Shown: piece by piece, positions 74 to 24,138 of the stretch
How the letters are laid out: every line of letters begins with the position of its first letter
How positions within the stretch are numbered: the stretch's first letter is position 1
NCBI GenBank assembly: GCA_947459115.1
Contig: CANHCC010000004.1
Coordinates: forward strand, 1 to 37,037
Direction: 5' to 3'
Source: Bacteroidota bacterium
Lineage (GTDB): Bacteria > Bacteroidota > Bacteroidia > J057 > RFSG01
DNA length: 37,037 bases
Notes under the pieces: generated by a model
The model's database searches: none
Seen by the model: only the letters and a program-made list of their open reading frames with translations
What the model was told of the DNA's origin: nothing
Position numbers and translations under genes: made by a program

Positions 74-111
74 ATAATACCACTAGTATCCCCCTCCCAA
101 AAAATAAAAAC

Positions 112-508
112 GCAACAGGCCTGTAAGCCGGGTTCTGTGTGTATAAAATACATGATCATCATTTGTCTAGGCTGCCTGTCACCAGTCAGCTCGATCGGCC
201 TACCCTTCCCGGCGCACTTCCGAAGAAGCTTGTATAACGAGCCGCCATACGGGTTTCCCCGCCGGGATTTATTTGGCCTTTCAACGCCTGAGGTTTACCT
301 GCCTGCCGGTCACCCGGACAAGCCGTGAGCTCTTACCTCACGATTTCACCCTTACCCCACCCGAAAGTAGGGCGGTATCCTTTCTGTGGCACTTTCTGTT
401 CCCCAATCTTTTCAAATTGAAGACCTTCCCGTTAGGAAGCAGGCTGCTCTGTGTTGCCCGGACTTTCCTCCCCCGCCCAAAAGCGGCAGCGATGACCCGG
501 CCTGTTGC
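112..508 (-). ncRNA. rnpB: RNase P RNA (bacterial type A-like)
   Basis: This is the catalytic RNA of RNase P, which trims tRNA 5' leaders. Read on the minus strand, the 5' part carries GGAGGAAAGTCCGGGC (complement of 456-471), the middle carries GAAAGTGCCACAGAAAGG followed by ATACCGCC, and the 3' end carries ACAGAACCCGGCTTACAGGCC; all three are signature segments of bacterial RNase P RNA. A 10-bp P1 helix, GCAACAGGCC (5' end, 508-499) with GGCCTGTTGC (3' end, 121-112), fixes the ends at about 397 nt. A T-rich run (complement of 99-110) directly follows the 3' end and probably ends transcription. ORFs called at 8-328 and 273-521 are shadows of this RNA. The mature ends could differ by a few nucleotides. 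Confidence 0.95.
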
Positions 509-4390: not shown

Positions 4391-4819
4391 ATGAAGGATT
4401 TTAACGAAAAACTGCTGAAAATCATCGAGAGAAGAAATCAGCTTGCAGAATTAAGTTATAACGACAAGAAATACGATAAAATCGAAGATCAGCTTCACGA
4501 TTTAGAGGATGAATTTACCGACGAATATGGGGAGCAGATGGAAGATATTATTCGTCAGATTCAGCATAAATACAATGCCTGGCAGGAGGTGTTGCATCCG
4601 ACCGCGTACATCGCCCGGAAGTATGTGGAGAAGGTAGATGCCAATGGCAATAAAATTTACTCCGTTACCCGTCAGGATGGGGTAGGAATAGAGAATTCCG
4701 AGACGGGCGAGTTGAAACTGGTCTATGTGCCCTTACCCGCGAGACTGGTGCTGACCGGTCGCCATGGAATCCATGAGGTCTGGAACAGTAATCAGCCCGA
4801 TCAGATTAATCTGATGTGA
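4391..4819 (+). CDS. Conserved-looking hypothetical protein with acidic helical N-terminus
   Basis: I do not recognise a named family. The 142-aa protein has no signal peptide or membrane segment, so it is probably cytoplasmic. Residues 1-70 are highly charged and predicted helical or coiled-coil (ERRNQLAELSYNDKKYDKIEDQLHDL is the style, with acidic clusters). Residues 75-142 look like a small beta-rich domain, with GRHGIHEVWN near the C-terminus. It is the first gene of a three-gene unit in which each stop overlaps the next start: its TGA (4817-4819) overlaps the GTG of the first small lipoprotein. Its own upstream promoter is well formed. Function is unknown. Confidence 0.8.
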   Translation: MKDFNEKLLKIIERRNQLAELSYNDKKYDKIEDQLHDLEDEFTDEYGEQMEDIIRQIQHKYNAWQEVLHPTAYIARKYVEKVDANGNKIYSVTRQDGVGIENSETGELKLVYVPLPARLVLTGRHGIHEVWNSNQPDQINLM

Positions 4820-5040
4820 GAGCACGGGTCTTTTGCAGGCTGAGTGTGTGGATCATTTTGGGGGTTGGGGTATTGTCAGGCTGTAAAAGCAGTCATCAGG
4901 ATTGTGATACGCCGGCAGCGGTGAGACATCGTTCAAGGAGTCAGGCAAGGCCGGGAGGAGGAGGTAAATTTCAATACCGACATCGATATGCCGGTCGTAA
5001 GGGGCCGGAATATCGGAGATACATACATAAACATTGGTGA
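4816..5040 (+). CDS. Small basic lipoprotein, first of a pair
   Basis: The 74-aa product starts at a GTG that overlaps the upstream stop. Residues 1-23 form a lipoprotein signal peptide (basic head, hydrophobic VWIILGVGVL, lipobox LSGC with Cys23). The mature part is about 50 residues, very rich in Arg, Lys and His, with a short GGGG stretch and no hydrophobic segment, so it should be a membrane-anchored, strongly cationic peptide. A second Cys follows the lipidated one in a C-x6-C arrangement, the same as in the next gene. The stop TGA (5038-5040) shares its last base with the ATG of the second lipoprotein, so the two are probably translationally coupled. No function is assigned. The non-ATG start and the low-complexity tail leave some doubt. 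Confidence 0.65.
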   Translation: MRARVFCRLSVWIILGVGVLSGCKSSHQDCDTPAAVRHRSRSQARPGGGGKFQYRHRYAGRKGPEYRRYIHKHW

Positions 5041-5207
5041 TGCATCGTCTATTGGCAGTAATCCTGCTTGGTACAGGAGTGCTTTTGTCTTCTTGTGGGG
5101 GAGGGCCTTCCGGTTGTCCCGGTGTAATGAGTACAGGGAATCGTATCCCCAAGAAAGCGAAGAGACCCAAATACGGCTTATTCCCTAAAAAGATGCAACC
5201 TAAGTGA
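5040..5207 (+). CDS. Small basic lipoprotein, second of a pair (absent from the ORF track)
   Basis: This 55-aa ORF falls below the track's length cut. It reads MHRLLAVILLGTGVLLSSC, a textbook lipoprotein signal peptide with Cys19 in the lipobox, followed by a 37-residue mature part rich in Lys and Arg (IPKKAKRPKYGLFPKK). A second Cys stands seven residues after the lipidated Cys (C-x6-C), as in the preceding gene, suggesting the two are related. Its ATG overlaps the upstream stop as TGATG, and a hairpin with a T-run follows 46 bp after its stop, consistent with the end of an operon. The ORF track entry at 4988-5188 in another frame is its shadow. Function is unknown. Confidence 0.75.
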   Translation: MHRLLAVILLGTGVLLSSCGGGPSGCPGVMSTGNRIPKKAKRPKYGLFPKKMQPK

Positions 5208-5326: not shown

Positions 5327-7009
5327 CTACCCAATTTTTTGATACACCCCTTCCAATAATTCCACTTTTGTCTTTTGGCTTGCACCAAGCAAATCTTCAA
5401 CGGCCTGTTTTAACCCCTGATGAATTGCAGTGTCTTCAATGCCCTGAAGGTTTATCAGCACATTCATGCCTGCACCTTCAATGGCGGTAATGGCACATAA
5501 GACGCCAACTCCGGCATCTGTGATGGAGCTTGGGTTCCCATGCAGAATCATTTCTTTAAGAATGGGGAACACTTCAGCAGCGGTTTGCATAACCTGAAGG
5601 GGGATTTCAGCTGCATAAATATTGGCCTTTTGAATGGCTTGTTTGCGGGCAACTTTCTCTTCTTCTGTTGTTTTGGGTAGGCCGAATGCGGCCATAACTT
5701 CATTAAACGCCCGTGTATCTTCTTCGATCAGGAAGAGCAGTTTTTCCCGGATTTGCTGAGCCTTAAAGGCCAGTGCACTGAAGGTAGGGATGCGGTCTTC
5801 CCATCCTCTTTTTCCAGCTGCCAGGTTTGCGGTCATGGCGGCCAGGCCTGCGGCCAGACTGCCGCACAATGCCGATACAGATCCACCCCCCGGGGCGGGG
5901 GCTTCCGACGCGAGGACTTCGGTAAATCTGGATATGGTTAAATCGTTGAGCCCCTTTGTTGTTTCTCGGAGTTTGTACTCAATGATTTTTTCTTCGGCAA
6001 CAAAAGGCCTGAGGTCACTCAGTCCCATGCTTTGTACTGCCATCTGAATCAGCTCTCGTTCAGATACCCCAATGGAGCGGTTTTGTTTTGCGAGATAAAA
6101 TTTGCCTGCTTCAGTAAGGGCCGAAAGTGGTATCAGCCCGACTATTTCAGTCCCAGACACCCTTAAGCCTCTTTGAGTTGCAGATTTATTCACTTCTTCA
6201 AACGCCTGGTGTAGGGAGGTTACGGATAGATTGGTCAGATTCATCGAGACCTGAGCAAAGCCATATTCCTCGATGAACCAGCCAACGGCTTTGCATTCTT
6301 TGAGGGTTCCGGGAATGCGAACTGGTTCTCCCTTTTCATCTAATATGGGTTTGCCTGACGGTTTCCCGTTGTCGGTTTTTATTCTTCCGTTTTCTCTGAC
6401 ATCAAAGGCAACAGAGTTGGCCAAACGGACAGAAGCTGTATTCAAATTGAAATTCACCGCAGCCAAAAATTCTCTGACCCCTATGACGGTTTGTCCTGAT
6501 TTGGCGTTGAATTCCGCTTTACCATAATCAGGTTTCCATTCAGGCTGTAATATCTTTTTGGCGAATCCCTCATATTCTCCGGAGCGAATGATGGATAAGT
6601 TTTTACGTTCGGTTGATTTCGCTGCGTATTCATACATATAAACCGGAATATTTAATTCCCGGCCAACTCTTTCACCCAATCGGTGGGCGAGCTCAACCGC
6701 TTCTTCGACGGATATTCCGGAGACTGGAATGAGGGGACAGACATCGGTTGCGCCCATTCTGGGATGTGCGCCCTGATGTCGGGTCATATCAATAAGTTGT
6801 CCAGCCATTTTGATAGCCTGGAACGCAGCTTCAATGACTGCCTCTGGGTCTCCGGCAAAAGTAACGACCGTTCGATGGGTACTTGCGCCCGGGTCAATAT
6901 CCAGAAGTTTTACACCGGTTGTCTGGCGGATAGGCTCGCAGATGGCTTCTATGATTTTCATGTCCCGCCCTTCGGAGAAATTTGGTACGCATTCGAGGAT
7001 TCGCTTCAT
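5327..7009 (-). CDS. ftcD: Bifunctional glutamate formimidoyltransferase / formimidotetrahydrofolate cyclodeaminase
   Basis: The protein moves the formimino group from formimino-glutamate (histidine breakdown) to tetrahydrofolate, then releases ammonia to give methenyl-THF. Residues 1 to about 325 are the transferase: MKRILECVPNFSEG start, GASTHRTVVTF, and RHQGAHPRMGATDVCP, in which His82 corresponds to the catalytic His of the family. Residues about 345-560 are the cyclodeaminase domain, with the glycine-rich APAPGGGSVSALCGSLAAG. The 560-aa length is right for the fused form known from animals and some bacteria. No other histidine-utilisation (hut) gene is in the window, so it is an orphan here. 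A perfect -7 box sits 4 nt before the ATG. Inside the last part of the gene, 5378-5390 matches the 13-nt palindromic core of the terminal repeats exactly. Confidence 0.95.
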   Translation of the reverse strand: MKRILECVPNFSEGRDMKIIEAICEPIRQTTGVKLLDIDPGASTHRTVVTFAGDPEAVIEAAFQAIKMAGQLIDMTRHQGAHPRMGATDVCPLIPVSGISVEEAVELAHRLGERVGRELNIPVYMYEYAAKSTERKNLSIIRSGEYEGFAKKILQPEWKPDYGKAEFNAKSGQTVIGVREFLAAVNFNLNTASVRLANSVAFDVRENGRIKTDNGKPSGKPILDEKGEPVRIPGTLKECKAVGWFIEEYGFAQVSMNLTNLSVTSLHQAFEEVNKSATQRGLRVSGTEIVGLIPLSALTEAGKFYLAKQNRSIGVSERELIQMAVQSMGLSDLRPFVAEEKIIEYKLRETTKGLNDLTISRFTEVLASEAPAPGGGSVSALCGSLAAGLAAMTANLAAGKRGWEDRIPTFSALAFKAQQIREKLLFLIEEDTRAFNEVMAAFGLPKTTEEEKVARKQAIQKANIYAAEIPLQVMQTAAEVFPILKEMILHGNPSSITDAGVGVLCAITAIEGAGMNVLINLQGIEDTAIHQGLKQAVEDLLGASQKTKVELLEGVYQKIG

Positions 7010-9934: not shown

Positions 9935-11842
9935 TTAGTGAGCGACAGTCATTTTACGGGTCAATTTCTGGTTGCCGGATTTTAGGCTGTAGAAATAGAT
10001 ACCGGAGGAATAAGTTGACAAATCTAGTTCAACAGAATTCAGACCACTGTTCAGGTTTTCTAAAGAACGAGCTTCAATAACTTGACCATGGATGTTGGTA
10101 ACTGTAAATTCAGCGTTGCCACCATTTACTAATTCAAACTCGATACGGGTTCTGTCAGTACCTGGGTTTGGATAGTTTTGGCCAAGGTTGTTCACATTGC
10201 CATTGATTTCTGCTTGGTTAGAAACACCGGAATAGCCGGAGGTTACCAAACGAAGGGCGATGTCTTCAGCAGAACGGTTACGGCTGGCTGCCCAGTTACC
10301 GAACAATACTTCGTAGGTGCGGTAAGAGAAGGGAGGCTGATTGTCAGTAACGATGTATGTAGAATCTCCACCTTGAACAAATGAAATGTAAACACCTTGT
10401 CCGGCAGTCATTTGGATTGGAGGACTGATAGGAAGAGGCACAACAACTAAAGATGAAGCAGGAAGATTTGCTGCTGCAATGGTAGCAGTACCAAGACTTG
10501 TTCCAGCTCCGGGAGCGCCATCATTCAAATACATGTTAATAGTGAAATCACTGGGAACTGTAGTCGTGATTACATAAAGTTCAAGAGAGTCTATTTGTGC
10601 AGGATAAGCAGGAGGCTCGAAATATACCCCTACGCCATTACCAGCGCCAAAGCCACTGATGCCGTGAAGCGCCTGGTCGAATGGGGGCTCAAAACGATCG
10701 TAAGATAATTTAACAAAAGACTGACCACAGTCTACAACATTAAATTCTGTTTCAGCGCGGTTATTGCCTGTAGTAGCATCACCGGTTAAAGCCAGTTGGC
10801 TTCTGAGGAAATAAGATCCAACAGCTGATGGTGTATAGCTTGAGGTTTGAGATACCTGAACTTCCTGACCTGGAGTAAGACCAGCGGTGTAGGAGGTATT
10901 TAATACGGAACCTGCTACCGGTGTAAGGCTTCCGGCTGGGAATACTGAAGTCGTGCACTGAACAGCAGCAGAGATTGGTTGGTTACCCACATTTTTAATG
11001 ATGGACATTGGGGTGTTCGGTACATTCAATGGTACGAAAATACCGCCATTCTCACCATTAAAGTTGGCTTCTGCCTGAACATCAGTTACCTGGAAAGTTA
11101 CAGCAGATGGGTAGTAAAATTTAACAGCTGTGCTGGTGGTTGGGTAAGTGTTATTTGAAACTTGTAAGCCGATTTGACCAGTGATGTTTTCAATTCCAAC
11201 AACCAATGGATTGGTTGCAGTGTTGTATCCATCATCCCAAATGCCATTTTGATCTTTGTATTGGAAAGTGATTGAAGAATCAGCTTTGCAAAGAATGACC
11301 TGGAAGGTATTGGTGCCAGCATAAGCAGAATTATAATAGAAAGGAACACTTTCGTAAGTGATAACCATACTATCAGCTGCAGTGTTGGTGTAGAGATAAA
11401 CACGACCTGGGTTACCTGGCGCTACCTGACCTACAGAATCAGCAAAATTCAAGTCACACATCATTGGTGCGAGGAAATGATTTTGATTGACCGGGAAGGC
11501 AGTAGGCATTGCAGGGAAGCCAATGGTAGTAGAGGCAATATTGGCAATCGGAGAGAATCCGATGTATCCATTAGAGCCAATCCATACTTGTGTAGCATCC
11601 AGCCAATAGTAAGGGAAGTTGAAGCCGATGCTGAAAGGACCGACAACATTGTCATCAGCTAGTCCGGATACGGTAACAACACCCGGGGCGTTACTGATTT
11701 CTACCCAGTTGTATGCCGGGCCATTCGGATCATTGCTGTTTCTCCAGACATATCCGTAGGTATCCGGACCGCCACTGGTTTGTGCAATTACCCGAACCCC
11801 AAGCATGAGTGCAAGTGTGAGGAAGGATAAAACTTTTTTCAT
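9935..11842 (-). CDS. Secreted protein with T9SS type A sorting domain
   Basis: The 635-aa protein has an N-terminal signal peptide (MKKVLSFLTLALMLGVRVIAQ) and a C-terminal sorting domain (about 555-635) that opens with NLGQNYPNPGTDRTRIEF and closes with SGIYFYSLKSGNQKLTRKM, the standard signal for export by the type IX secretion system and attachment to the cell surface or release. Between them the sequence is beta-rich with aromatic and Gly/Asn-rich stretches (for example IGFNFPYYW, SNGYIGF), suggestive of Ig-like or jelly-roll modules; no catalytic motif is visible. It is transcribed alone, with a clear -7 box about 40 nt upstream and a strong terminator. Its substrate or binding partner is unknown. 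Confidence 0.88.
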   Translation of the reverse strand: MKKVLSFLTLALMLGVRVIAQTSGGPDTYGYVWRNSNDPNGPAYNWVEISNAPGVVTVSGLADDNVVGPFSIGFNFPYYWLDATQVWIGSNGYIGFSPIANIASTTIGFPAMPTAFPVNQNHFLAPMMCDLNFADSVGQVAPGNPGRVYLYTNTAADSMVITYESVPFYYNSAYAGTNTFQVILCKADSSITFQYKDQNGIWDDGYNTATNPLVVGIENITGQIGLQVSNNTYPTTSTAVKFYYPSAVTFQVTDVQAEANFNGENGGIFVPLNVPNTPMSIIKNVGNQPISAAVQCTTSVFPAGSLTPVAGSVLNTSYTAGLTPGQEVQVSQTSSYTPSAVGSYFLRSQLALTGDATTGNNRAETEFNVVDCGQSFVKLSYDRFEPPFDQALHGISGFGAGNGVGVYFEPPAYPAQIDSLELYVITTTVPSDFTINMYLNDGAPGAGTSLGTATIAAANLPASSLVVVPLPISPPIQMTAGQGVYISFVQGGDSTYIVTDNQPPFSYRTYEVLFGNWAASRNRSAEDIALRLVTSGYSGVSNQAEINGNVNNLGQNYPNPGTDRTRIEFELVNGGNAEFTVTNIHGQVIEARSLENLNSGLNSVELDLSTYSSGIYFYSLKSGNQKLTRKMTVAH

Positions 11843-20259: not shown

Positions 20260-23200
20260 TTACTGCTTGATAAATTTCCCACGGTACACTTTTTCTTTAG
20301 TAGAATACCTTATCCAATAATATCCGGAGGTAAGGGTTTGTATGCCTAATTGCATTTTATTTCCATCTACAATCATGTGTTCCACTGCGATGCCTTTGCC
20401 ATTTACATCCGTTATTTCAAGTAACCCATCTTCTCTGACATCCGGAAGGGTAAAGAAAACAAAGTTTTCCGATGGATTAGGATAGAGTTCTAAGGTGTTC
20501 AAATGCTCCATATCCTCATTACCAGTTGTGCCAATGGTCACGGTTTGATAGGAAGTGTCGTTTTTGCAGGTATTGAAAGCAATCAGACGAACATTGTAAG
20601 TTCCGTAGGCAAGGTAAGTGTGAGAAGGATTCACCTGAGTGCTTGTATTCCCGTCTCCAAAGCTCCAATTGTAGGCAAATGCCTCTGAAGATTGATTCGT
20701 AAACTGAACCTGAACCCCATTGATGGATTTGCTGAAATTCGCTGTAGCAGGAAGGGTTGTCAGAATAGTAATGGTATCCGTCGAGGTACATCCCCCATTG
20801 GTAATATTCCAGGTGAGAACTACGCTGTCTCCCAAAACAATACCTGTGACCTGAGCGTGAGGTTGGTGGGGATTAACCAGGCTAACAGGGCCATACAAAA
20901 TATCCCAGTTTCCGGTTCCAACAAGTGGCGTATTCCCTGTCATTATCTCTATGGTATTACAGGTGGTATAATCTAGTCCAGCATCCGCAGGTGTTGGGGG
21001 GAGAGTTCTGATAACCGTTACTTCATCAAACGAGGAGTAGCAGGTTCCATTATTTATATACCATCTGAATACATTCACGCCATTTCCAATGCCTTGAACA
21101 GGGGAGTTATAGTCGGTAGGATTGGTAATATTGCCCGTACCTGAAATGAGAAGCCAGCTTCCCTGACCGATTGTTGGGATATTCCCGTCGAGTGTTGTGG
21201 AAGAGGTACAAATCTGGAAATCTACCCCTGCATCGGCAATCGTGGCGGGGGCAAGGTATTCAATAGTTACTGTGTCACTGGTCACACACACACCATAGAA
21301 AACAGTCCAGACCAATTCGTTTTGGCCTTCATCTAATCCGGTAACCATTGTATTGGCATTAGTTACACTGTCGAAGGTTGCATTTCCTGAACTAACAGAC
21401 CAGATACTGGTACCGGCAGGGGGAATAACCGCATTGAGCATGGCTGTATCCGTACATACAGACTGATCAGGGCCTGCATAAAATGGAGAAGCATATTGGC
21501 CAACCGATACAATTACCAAGTCAGAAACCTGGCCACATGCATTAGAAACCGTCCATCTGAGGGTGTTGTTGCCTACAGCCAGGCCATTAATGGTGGTGTT
21601 TGGGTCCGTAGGATTGACAAATGTTCCTGTTCCTGAAATCAGTGCCCATGTTCCTGTGCCGGAACCGGGGCTACTGCCAGATAACAAAGCGGATTGTAAG
21701 CAAATGTTTTGGTCAGAGCCTGCATTTACTCCGGTAGGGAGGGTTTGAATGGAGACATTAATTGTATCTCGGTCAATGCACCCACCATTGGTAACAGTCC
21801 AGATGTATTGATTAAGCCCATTTCCTATGCCTGATACAGCGCTGGTTGGTGAGGCAGAATTGGCAAAGTTTCCACTACCGGTTAAGACGCTCCATTGCCC
21901 TGTGCCATTCAGAGGAGTCGCAGCTCCAAGGTTTGCTGAGGTTGAACAGGTAAATACATCAGAACCAGCAATGGCACTAACAGAAGAAGAGTCTATTATG
22001 ATGGTTACATCGCTGGTGGAAGTACAATTTAAGTTGGTTGTGGTCCATCTGAAGACATTGGCTCCCACAGTCATGTTCAGAATGTCAGTGGTAGGACTTG
22101 TGGGGTTAACAATATTTCCATTTCCTGAAACCAAAGACCAAAGACCGGTACCTACGCTGGGGGTATTGGCAAACATCTGTGTGCTATCGTTGAAGCAAAT
22201 GGTTTGGTTAGATCCGGCAATGGATGGGGTAGGACCATCATTTTGAATGGTTACATCTGAAGTGGTTGAACCACAAGAATTCGAAACTGTCCAGCGGAAT
22301 GTATTAATTCCCGGACCTATGTTCGAAACGGCTGTGGTTGGATCATTGTTGTTTACAAAAGATCCTCCCCCGGTAACGGCAGTCCAGGTTCCGGTTCCAA
22401 TGGCAGGTGCATTTCCTGCAAGGATAGTGTTCGGACTACAGATGGTTTGATTGGCTCCTGCTACAGAGGCACTTGGAGGACCATAGGTGATTGTTACATC
22501 TGAAGTACTTGTGCAAGTACCATTCGTAGTGGTCCATCTGTAAACATTGATGCCAATTCCAATTCCTGTCGCTGCACTAGTTGCTATGGTTGGATTGGTG
22601 AAGGTACCTGTGCCAGAAACTACCGACCATGCGCCGGTTCCAATAACAGGTGCTGTTGCACTCATATTGGGTATGGAGGGCACACAGGTTGTTGCATTTA
22701 CACCTGCAATGGCCGGGGAGGGACTGTCATTAATGATTGTGACATTTGAGGTGGCTGAGCCACATGCCGTGGTGGTGACCGTCCAACGGTAAACATTGGT
22801 TCCCTGCGGAATGTTGGTGACGCCCGTGTTGAATGTACTGGTGCTGCCAAATGTCCCGGATCCGGTTACAACCGACCATGCACCCGTTCCTACGGTTGGA
22901 TTTGTGGCGGCCATTGTAGCTGAGCTTCCACAAATGGTTTGATTTGCACCCGCTACCGAAGTTGGGGCATCCGCTAGAGTAACGGTATATTCCTCCCATT
23001 CTCCGCCGTCAGTTGTATTGGTACTGCTGGGGTAATAGGTGGCTGCACATGACAAGACATTTGGCGTAATGCCGGCAACGGACAATACGCGCATCCTTAC
23101 CTGGCCGGTGACCGCTCCCAAGGGTACGGTAAAGTTTCCGGTACCGGGTAGGAGAGAAGGAGCAGTTGGGACTAGCACATTTTCGCCGGCATCATTAAAG

Positions 23201-24138
23201 TTGCCGTTGTTGTTATAGTCTATCCAGGCTGCTTTGCCCTGAGCTAATCCTAAAGAACTAATGCTGATGTTGTAAACACTGCCTTTGCATAGCGTGGTGG
23301 TTGCATTCGGGAAATATTGATAGGCTGTATTGTTATTGTAGGTAGAGTTATTGTTAAGGGTATTTAAGGTTACATTGTTGATGTAGTCCAGGGTAAAGTC
23401 GCAGGTTTCGTTGAAAGGGACTGCACATTCAACCGTGGTTTGAATAGTGTTAGAGTATGCTACGCAGCCTCCATTCACCAGGCGAGCTCTGGCAAACATG
23501 GTAGAGTTGTTTTGAGAAGTAACAAAGAAATTGACACTGGTTGCGCTTGAACCACTGGAGAGCCAAGGGAGCGTATTGAAATAGTATTCCCAATCAATTG
23601 TGCCTGTATGACCCGTAAGTCTGAACACAACGGAGTCGTTCGACACAATGCTCGATCTGGAGGTGGTAGCTGTTCCTCCAACTGCCGGTATAGAACATGG
23701 CACTTGTCTTACCGCGATGTGCGAGCCATTTGTCGAATTGCCTGCACAATTCAATTGGCTGACTAATACTCTGAAAACACCGGTGGATGAGGCTGCCCAG
23801 CTAAATTTTGAAGCTGTTCCGCATCCAGGTGCATCATTGTTGAAAGTCCCAATATAGACACCCGCATTGCTGTTCATCGAGATTTCAGTGTCATAGGTAT
23901 TGGCCCCTCCATCTGTGGAGCAAAACGAAAACTCATAAACATTACCGGCTACTGCATTGAATTGCAGGTATTCTCCCCCCCAAATGTCAAAATAGGTTGT
24001 CCAGGTGGTTGAGATGTTAATCGGCGTAGTATTATAGGCAGATCCACCCTGGCATTGTGCATTTGCATTTTGCCATGGAGTTATCCAAATAAATACCAGG
24101 AGCAAAACGGGTAATAAAGTATTAGTAAAGCTTCTCAT
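20260..24138 (-). CDS. Large secreted repeat protein with GEVED, PKD and T9SS sorting domains
   Basis: The 1292-aa protein starts with a signal peptide (LLPVLLLVFIWITPWQNANAQ). Residues about 30-150 form a beta-rich domain (FSFCSTDGGANTYDTEI); about 280-385 form a GEVED-type domain (WIDYNNNGNFNDAGENV, VRMRVLS). Nine repeats of about 82 aa fill about 393-1131, each with AG.(N/D)QTIC, (V/I)GTG.W.(V/L)(V/I)(T/S)G.G and a FRWT..N..C ending. A PKD domain follows (about 1133-1205; YNWSFGDGNTSTQVNPSHTY), then a T9SS sorting domain (LELYPNPSENFVFF to the end). It is probably exported to the cell surface, perhaps as an adhesin or extended stalk; no enzyme motif is visible. Long ORFs on the opposite strand (for example 21827-22246) are shadows caused by the repeats. 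Confidence 0.9.
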   Translation of the reverse strand: MRSFTNTLLPVLLLVFIWITPWQNANAQCQGGSAYNTTPINISTTWTTYFDIWGGEYLQFNAVAGNVYEFSFCSTDGGANTYDTEISMNSNAGVYIGTFNNDAPGCGTASKFSWAASSTGVFRVLVSQLNCAGNSTNGSHIAVRQVPCSIPAVGGTATTSRSSIVSNDSVVFRLTGHTGTIDWEYYFNTLPWLSSGSSATSVNFFVTSQNNSTMFARARLVNGGCVAYSNTIQTTVECAVPFNETCDFTLDYINNVTLNTLNNNSTYNNNTAYQYFPNATTTLCKGSVYNISISSLGLAQGKAAWIDYNNNGNFNDAGENVLVPTAPSLLPGTGNFTVPLGAVTGQVRMRVLSVAGITPNVLSCAATYYPSSTNTTDGGEWEEYTVTLADAPTSVAGANQTICGSSATMAATNPTVGTGAWSVVTGSGTFGSTSTFNTGVTNIPQGTNVYRWTVTTTACGSATSNVTIINDSPSPAIAGVNATTCVPSIPNMSATAPVIGTGAWSVVSGTGTFTNPTIATSAATGIGIGINVYRWTTTNGTCTSTSDVTITYGPPSASVAGANQTICSPNTILAGNAPAIGTGTWTAVTGGGSFVNNNDPTTAVSNIGPGINTFRWTVSNSCGSTTSDVTIQNDGPTPSIAGSNQTICFNDSTQMFANTPSVGTGLWSLVSGNGNIVNPTSPTTDILNMTVGANVFRWTTTNLNCTSTSDVTIIIDSSSVSAIAGSDVFTCSTSANLGAATPLNGTGQWSVLTGSGNFANSASPTSAVSGIGNGLNQYIWTVTNGGCIDRDTINVSIQTLPTGVNAGSDQNICLQSALLSGSSPGSGTGTWALISGTGTFVNPTDPNTTINGLAVGNNTLRWTVSNACGQVSDLVIVSVGQYASPFYAGPDQSVCTDTAMLNAVIPPAGTSIWSVSSGNATFDSVTNANTMVTGLDEGQNELVWTVFYGVCVTSDTVTIEYLAPATIADAGVDFQICTSSTTLDGNIPTIGQGSWLLISGTGNITNPTDYNSPVQGIGNGVNVFRWYINNGTCYSSFDEVTVIRTLPPTPADAGLDYTTCNTIEIMTGNTPLVGTGNWDILYGPVSLVNPHQPHAQVTGIVLGDSVVLTWNITNGGCTSTDTITILTTLPATANFSKSINGVQVQFTNQSSEAFAYNWSFGDGNTSTQVNPSHTYLAYGTYNVRLIAFNTCKNDTSYQTVTIGTTGNEDMEHLNTLELYPNPSENFVFFTLPDVREDGLLEITDVNGKGIAVEHMIVDGNKMQLGIQTLTSGYYWIRYSTKEKVYRGKFIKQ

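Follow-up and report, generated by a model that had tools for sequence, protein, structure and literature searches.

EcnA and EcnB of E. coli, as cited in PMC5105897, are linked small cell-envelope lipoproteins, and the small lipoprotein LptM promotes the oxidative maturation of LptD via substrate mimicry (PMC10567701). In F. johnsoniae, SprF and PorG have unstructured periplasmic tails whose cysteines are joined to the lipoprotein GldK by intermolecular disulfides (PMC12635249). The surface-export signals described for Bacteroidota lipoproteins are the acidic motifs K-(D/E)2, Q-A-(D/E)2, SDDDD and SDDFE (PMC5080379). The pair of genes reported here, ORF1 and ORF2, resembles EcnA/EcnB in encoding tandem tiny envelope lipoproteins, yet the two proteins show no sequence match to the entericidins and are not helical and amphipathic. 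As proposed below, they would share with SprF and PorG a cysteine in a flexible periplasmic segment at the Bacteroidota outer membrane, whereas SprF and PorG are anchored by beta-barrels, are not lipoproteins and carry a Cys-x-Cys or a single Cys.

ORF1 and ORF2 lie in a window (the whole stretch of DNA analysed, 37,037 nucleotides) from a Bacteroidota genome, termed G000, where they form a string of three overlapping forward-strand frames with an upstream gene starting at 4391 (Table 1). The first-pass annotation had described two overlapping short lipoproteins, each with C-x6-C and a mature part crowded with Arg and Lys, and the sequence bears this out, with pI values of 10.7 for mature ORF1 and 10.5 for mature ORF2. 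By inspection, both proteins begin with a lipoprotein (signal peptidase II) signal: in ORF1 the n-region, h-region and lipobox read MRAR..LSVWIILGVGVLSG↓C (lipobox LSG↓C, Cys23), and in ORF2 the signal reads MHRLLAVILLGTGVLLSS↓C (lipobox SS↓C, Cys19 when numbered from the ATG at 5040). In both, a second cysteine stands exactly seven positions beyond the lipidated one. Mature ORF1 has 52 residues, is Arg/His rich (13 K/R, i.e., 9 Arg and 4 Lys, plus 5 His) and ORF1 carries a net charge of +10 at pH 7; mature ORF2 has 37 residues, is Gly/Pro rich (13 of 37), contains 9 K/R (7 Lys, 2 Arg) and no acidic residue at all, and the ORF2 net charge is +9. The two are not paralogues of each other as far as hhalign can tell, since it gave no match between them.

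Table 1. Features of the window in and around the ORF1/ORF2 locus.
Feature	Positions	Strand	Basis or state in relatives
4391 gene, soluble acidic 142-aa protein, pI 5.1	4391..4819	+	92% identical in G007
GTGA overlap, 4391 gene stop and ORF1 GTG start	4816..4819	+	sequence; G007 junction identical
ORF1, basic lipoprotein precursor, 74 aa, GTG start	4816..5040	+	sequence; kept in G007
ORF1 C-x6-C, CKSSHQDC, lipidated Cys23 to Cys30	4882..4905	+	G007: CKSSNQDC
ORF1 last 14 residues, RKGPEYRRYIHKHW	4996..5037	+	unchanged in G007
GTGA, ORF1 stop overlapped by probable conserved ORF2 GTG start	5037..5040	+	in-frame GTG before ATG 5040
ORF2, basic lipoprotein precursor, 55 aa (ATG) or 56 aa (GTG)	5037..5207	+	sequence; kept in G007
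ORF2 C-x6-C-P, CGGGPSGCP, Cys19 to Cys26-Pro27	5094..5120	+	G007 CGPGPSACP; G054 CAPQVCP; G266 CAPAICP
ORF2 C-terminal motif RPKYGLFPKKM	5163..5195	+	GLFP and Met invariant in four ORF2-type proteins
Fused glutamate formimidoyltransferase/cyclohydrolase	5327..7009	-	
Protein with TIGR04183 (T9SS type A sorting domain)	9935..11842	-	
Protein with TIGR04183 (T9SS type A sorting domain)	20260..24138	-	
Bacterial RNase P RNA class A gene	108..508	-	

The same arrangement is retained in G007, a genome from another family of this order. There, homologues of ORF1 and ORF2 follow directly behind the homologue of the 4391 gene, on the same strand, with the same GTGA junction and with intact frames, so the condition under which the first-pass annotation would have given up the genes, namely that no conserved frame exists in relatives, does not hold. 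Identity to G007 is 63% overall and 77% in the mature part for ORF1, and 65% and 81%, respectively, for ORF2; in both proteins the signal peptides are less conserved than the mature parts and the C-termini. Substitutions at the three codon positions number 21/12/42 in ORF1 and 17/15/38 in ORF2, a third-position excess in each case (p=5e-5 and p=2e-4). The lipoboxes of the G007 homologues read FNG↓C (ORF1, less canonical) and FFS↓C (ORF2). Within the window, the stop of ORF1 overlaps the ATG of ORF2 in TGATG; this ATG is missing in G007, where translation must start at GTG, so the conserved start of ORF2 is probably the GTG at 5037, giving a GTGA overlap of the same type as that between the 4391 gene and ORF1. 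On this sequence evidence, ORF1 and ORF2 are genuine, conserved, uncharacterised genes.

The 4391 protein is predicted by AF2 as a helical hairpin plus a six-strand beta domain (pLDDT 93.8); a fold search of PDB with this model found nothing at E<=0.001, and no family in Pfam or NCBIfam reaches its cut-off for the protein. Its family is found at high confidence in 30 of 395 genomes of the class, and a scan of named genomes kept 80 loci, mostly from Cytophagales with some from other orders. In the scans of 4391-family loci, the ORF1/ORF2 pair stands beside the family only in G000 and G007. The earlier expectation that the pair always follows a 4391-type gene therefore fails from both sides: the other 4391 relatives examined lack the pair, and a parallel pair in two further genomes (G054 and G266, see below) adjoins pdxH and folD rather than a 4391-type gene. 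Because no such lipoproteins occur at the other 4391 loci scanned, the pair is not an obligate partner of the family; a dependence of ORF1/ORF2 on the 4391 gene was rejected on the same ground, and the two seem unrelated in function.

Upstream of the three-gene string lies a photolyase gene, and the convergent gene downstream ends beside the ORF2 stop. A glutamate formimidoyltransferase plus methenyltetrahydrofolate cyclohydrolase-like fusion also adjoins the trio in G007. Among the neighbours of ORF1/ORF2, no envelope gene that would indicate a partner is present. Confident matches to the ORF1 and ORF2 profiles are limited to 2 of the 395 class genomes, again G000 and G007, which are also the only carriers of ORF2 among the 22 genomes of the order searched; most weaker profile matches in the 395 genomes proved to be chance frames. 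Sequence searches of Pfam, NCBIfam and PDB returned nothing significant for either protein, Pfam gives no family for them even at E<=10, and no protein-family library searched describes ORF1 or ORF2. A phage origin, including an Rz1-like outer-membrane spanin, was rejected, given that 2.9 million viral contigs hold no relatives and that the chromosomal context is housekeeping.

The parallel pair extends the ORF2 type beyond these two genomes. G054, which belongs to the class but lies outside the order, encodes two abutting lipoproteins between pdxH and folD, and G266, likewise from outside the order, retains the pair at the same place. The frames abut without a gap (TAG-GTG in G054, TAA-TTG in G266), and the second lipoprotein gene of G054 is joined to folD by ATGA; codon-position bias for this pair is 21/13/52 (p=2e-7) and 30/21/44 (p=0.006). 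The first G054 protein has 91 residues (SSCAPKACPAND), a net charge of +20 and the C-terminal end RRPKYKFFETRLKKKQFKHQTK, while the second has 75 residues, the stretch SCAPQVCPANG and a GLFPKSM end, compared with GLFPKKM in ORF2. A relationship between the two is evident in their mature N-termini (P=3.5e-6), and the first has in addition an RPKY-x-x-F like that of ORF2 (P=0.006). The G054/G266 pairs resemble ORF1/ORF2 in consisting of adjacent basic micro-lipoproteins in overlapping or abutting frames within an operon, with the more basic one first and a GLFPKxM end on the second, whereas they differ in a Cys-x4-Cys-Pro spacing (x4 rather than x6), greater length and other neighbours.

Between ORF2 and the second G054/G266 protein, the hhalign score (P=3e-4) derives from the C-terminal motif alone, and the two further have in common, outside the scored region, the lipobox and P-x-x-C-P. 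All four ORF2-type proteins (G000, G007, G054 and G266) display S-C, P-x-x-C-P, a basic linker, G-L-F-P and Met. For ORF1 and the first G054 protein, hhalign gives P=0.45, and only layout, charge and P-[EK]-Y are in common; with no sequence tie here, it is by their order, charge and layout that the two pairs would be equivalent, and any relation of ORF1 to the ORF2-type group would be one of layout only. The parallel pair and the near-identical ends indicate that ORF2 is probably a member of a Bacteroidota group not described before and defined by a lipid anchor, a second cysteine in a CP step, a flexible basic linker and a C-terminal P-x-x-G-L-F/W.

Further candidates carry a comparable end. 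A weak profile match led to a 145-aa basic lipoprotein in G189 with C-x8-C, which ends HPEMGLFPKDMRK where ORF2 ends RPKYGLFPKKMQPK, and its relatives end HPQMGLFPNGHPG (G057) and HPQLGLWPNGHPG (G160). These three Lys-rich lipoproteins resemble ORF2 in having a lipobox, a second cysteine 9 residues on (C-x8-C), basic composition and a similar end (HPxMGLFP or HPxLGLWP), but differ in a mature part of 120-130 residues with a long Lys-rich linker and in being encoded by a single gene. Mature ORF2 aligns with them over 18 C-terminal columns (hhalign P=3e-4); the lipobox and second cysteine, outside those columns, agree independently.

Run over 188 genomes, a profile of the last 19 residues retrieved a basic envelope protein of G038 ending AKNPEMGLWGKEM (E=1.7e-5). 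The matches ranked below it are not significant on E-value alone: a G102 protein with an ordinary signal peptide, an SCPDFG start and the end RKPQMGLFDKKM, a G031 protein ending KKPQMGLFDPK, and the G054 protein ending RKPQKGLFPKSM, which is accepted despite its E-value because of its lipobox, P-x-x-C-P and adjoining lipoprotein. As a chance control, none of 5,362 ORFs in 645 kb of loci of the unrelated 4391 family has a [KRH]P..GL[FW] C-terminal end, and lipobox-plus-CP occurs among them in two long proteins only. A DNA pattern for GLFPK[KDNE][MV], run over 217 genomes, ends a basic lipoprotein, among the ORFs listed, only in ORF2 and G189; the other matches were set aside as chance. The proteins of G038 (L223, 1489-2312, minus strand), G102 (L236, 1495-2001, minus) and G031 (L233, 1480-2275, minus) are rich in Lys and repetitive, with D-x-F or DSYS as the repeat and P-x-M-G-L-F/W at the C-terminus; the G038 and G031 frames seem split between a lipoprotein start and the protein end. 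Both the C-terminal motif and these relatives elsewhere are additions to what the first-pass annotation contained.

Regarding function, our preferred reading, which we hold tentatively and somewhat short of probable, is that ORF1 and ORF2 are periplasm-facing, lipid-anchored tethers. Both proteins would be co-translated, pass through Sec and receive their lipid on the first cysteine. Residues +2 to +6 after that cysteine are KSSHQ in ORF1 and GGGPS in ORF2, and neither CKSSHQD nor CGGGPSG contains one of the acidic surface-export signals cited above, which makes a periplasm-facing position likely, though those signals may not be the ones used in this order. A short flexible tether, with its Gly/Pro-rich (ORF2) or Arg/His-rich (ORF1) basic stretch, would contact an anionic polymer, either peptidoglycan or lipid A phosphate. 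As the first cysteine is occupied by lipid, the second can pair only with another molecule, and it would form an intermolecular disulfide with the twin protein or a periplasmic partner, for which the SprF and PorG tails offer a precedent in the phylum (PMC12635249); it could also stay reduced or bind something else. Finally, docking on a protein partner would fall to the invariant peptide at the C-terminus (RPKYGLFPKKM in ORF2, RKGPEYRRYIHKHW in ORF1), as suggested by the placement of a flexible basic linker between membrane anchor and invariant peptide. Variation in linker length across the wider group fits such a tether, and the disorder predicted for ORF2 (see below) is weak evidence for it. 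Translational coupling suggests matched amounts of ORF1 and ORF2, which would suit a heterodimer. Several points count against this reading: the group is patchy, with ORF1/ORF2 in so few genomes of the class, which is unlike a core envelope part; ORF1 gives no significant match to the first G054 protein; and the neighbourhood offers no envelope gene as a candidate partner. That ORF1/ORF2 and the G054/G266 pairs represent, in two branches, a two-component Bacteroidota tether not described before, in which paired lipid-anchored proteins would hold a partner through a reversible intermolecular disulfide plus a GLF docking peptide and the linker would range from ~15 to >100 residues by lineage, appears doubtful; the parallel pair and the motif are a useful small-protein finding, and nothing yet shows a new kind of system.

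The first-pass annotation had suggested that such short cationic anchors bind LPS, peptidoglycan or nucleic acid or serve as accessory subunits of an envelope complex, and these roles are compatible with the charge and the anchor seen in the sequence. In the barest form of this idea, ORF1 and ORF2 would be basic lipoproteins without specificity, neutralising lipid A and peptidoglycan or bridging the two through charge, with neither a protein partner nor a disulfide. The high net charge of both proteins speaks for it, as does the predicted disorder of ORF2, whose model, built on an alignment of only four sequences, is unstructured beyond the signal peptide and has no predicted helix (pLDDT 62, pTM 0.22); but the exact C-terminal sequences and the second cysteine are conserved, which is more than a pure charge role would need, and we regard this explanation as rather unlikely.

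Less probable still is a part in the type IX secretion system (T9SS) or gliding track, in which the second cysteine would be disulfide-bonded to GldK/PorK in the manner of the SprF and PorG tails. The two TIGR04183 proteins of the window, T9SS substrates, imply that the host probably has the system, and the GldK bonds of flexible Cys-bearing tails are documented (PMC12635249), but the pair is rare although T9SS is widespread in the phylum, SprF and PorG are barrels rather than lipoproteins, and no gld/por gene lies near ORF1/ORF2. We consider it equally improbable that the two act as small lipoprotein chaperones of an outer-membrane beta-barrel, for which LptM in LptD oxidation provides the precedent: the LptM model matches neither ORF1 nor ORF2, and LptM was described in Enterobacteria. 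An antidote/toxin pair like the entericidins, prompted by the likewise linked EcnA and EcnB, is very unlikely given that Pfam yields no match at E<=10, that Gly/Pro-rich mature ORF2 with no predicted helix contrasts with an amphipathic helical lysin, and that the genes abut or overlap housekeeping genes in an operon. That ORF1 and ORF2 are chance open frames, as their shortness and absence from most relatives might suggest, can be dismissed, since conservation in a different family of intact frames, lipoboxes, Cys spacing and C-termini, with third-position bias, already refutes it.

If the second cysteine of the proposed tethers bonds intermolecularly, these proteins would be very small, simply testable additions to the disulfide attachments of the gliding/T9SS track in the same phylum. 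More generally, frames of 40-75 aa are easily missed in annotation, so very small Bacteroidota envelope proteins of a class marked by a conserved second cysteine and a common C-terminal peptide may be largely uncounted; the combination of lipobox, P-x-x-C-P, basic linker and P-x-x-G-L-F/W provides a search key for others.

The class also harbours many lipoproteins of 40-51 aa with C-x5/6-CPAY, in one case as a tandem (G022). These CPAY[S/G] micro-lipoproteins (L170-L179) resemble ORF2 in size (~40-51 aa) and in the succession of lipidated Cys, x5-6 and Cys-Pro, but lack the GLFP end; they were rejected as close kin, since the similar layout is not accompanied by significant profile similarity to ORF2 or ORF1. 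One CPAY protein matches the PG1828 family lipoprotein (NF050142, NCBIfam), a small Bacteroidota lipoprotein, below cut-off and mostly over the signal peptide; NF050142 matches neither ORF1 nor ORF2. The G022 tandem (L177, 1311-1617, minus strand) encodes SSCMSSKVDCPAYS and SSCRAKKVDCPAYG and is divergent from a uracil-DNA glycosylase gene, beside which L179 (G239) has a single micro-lipoprotein copy. At L170-L172 (G229, G034 and G174), a CPAYS-type micro-lipoprotein lies beside an MtaB-like methylthiotransferase gene and is flanked on the other side, in G229 and G034, by the gene for a LolD-like ABC ATPase.
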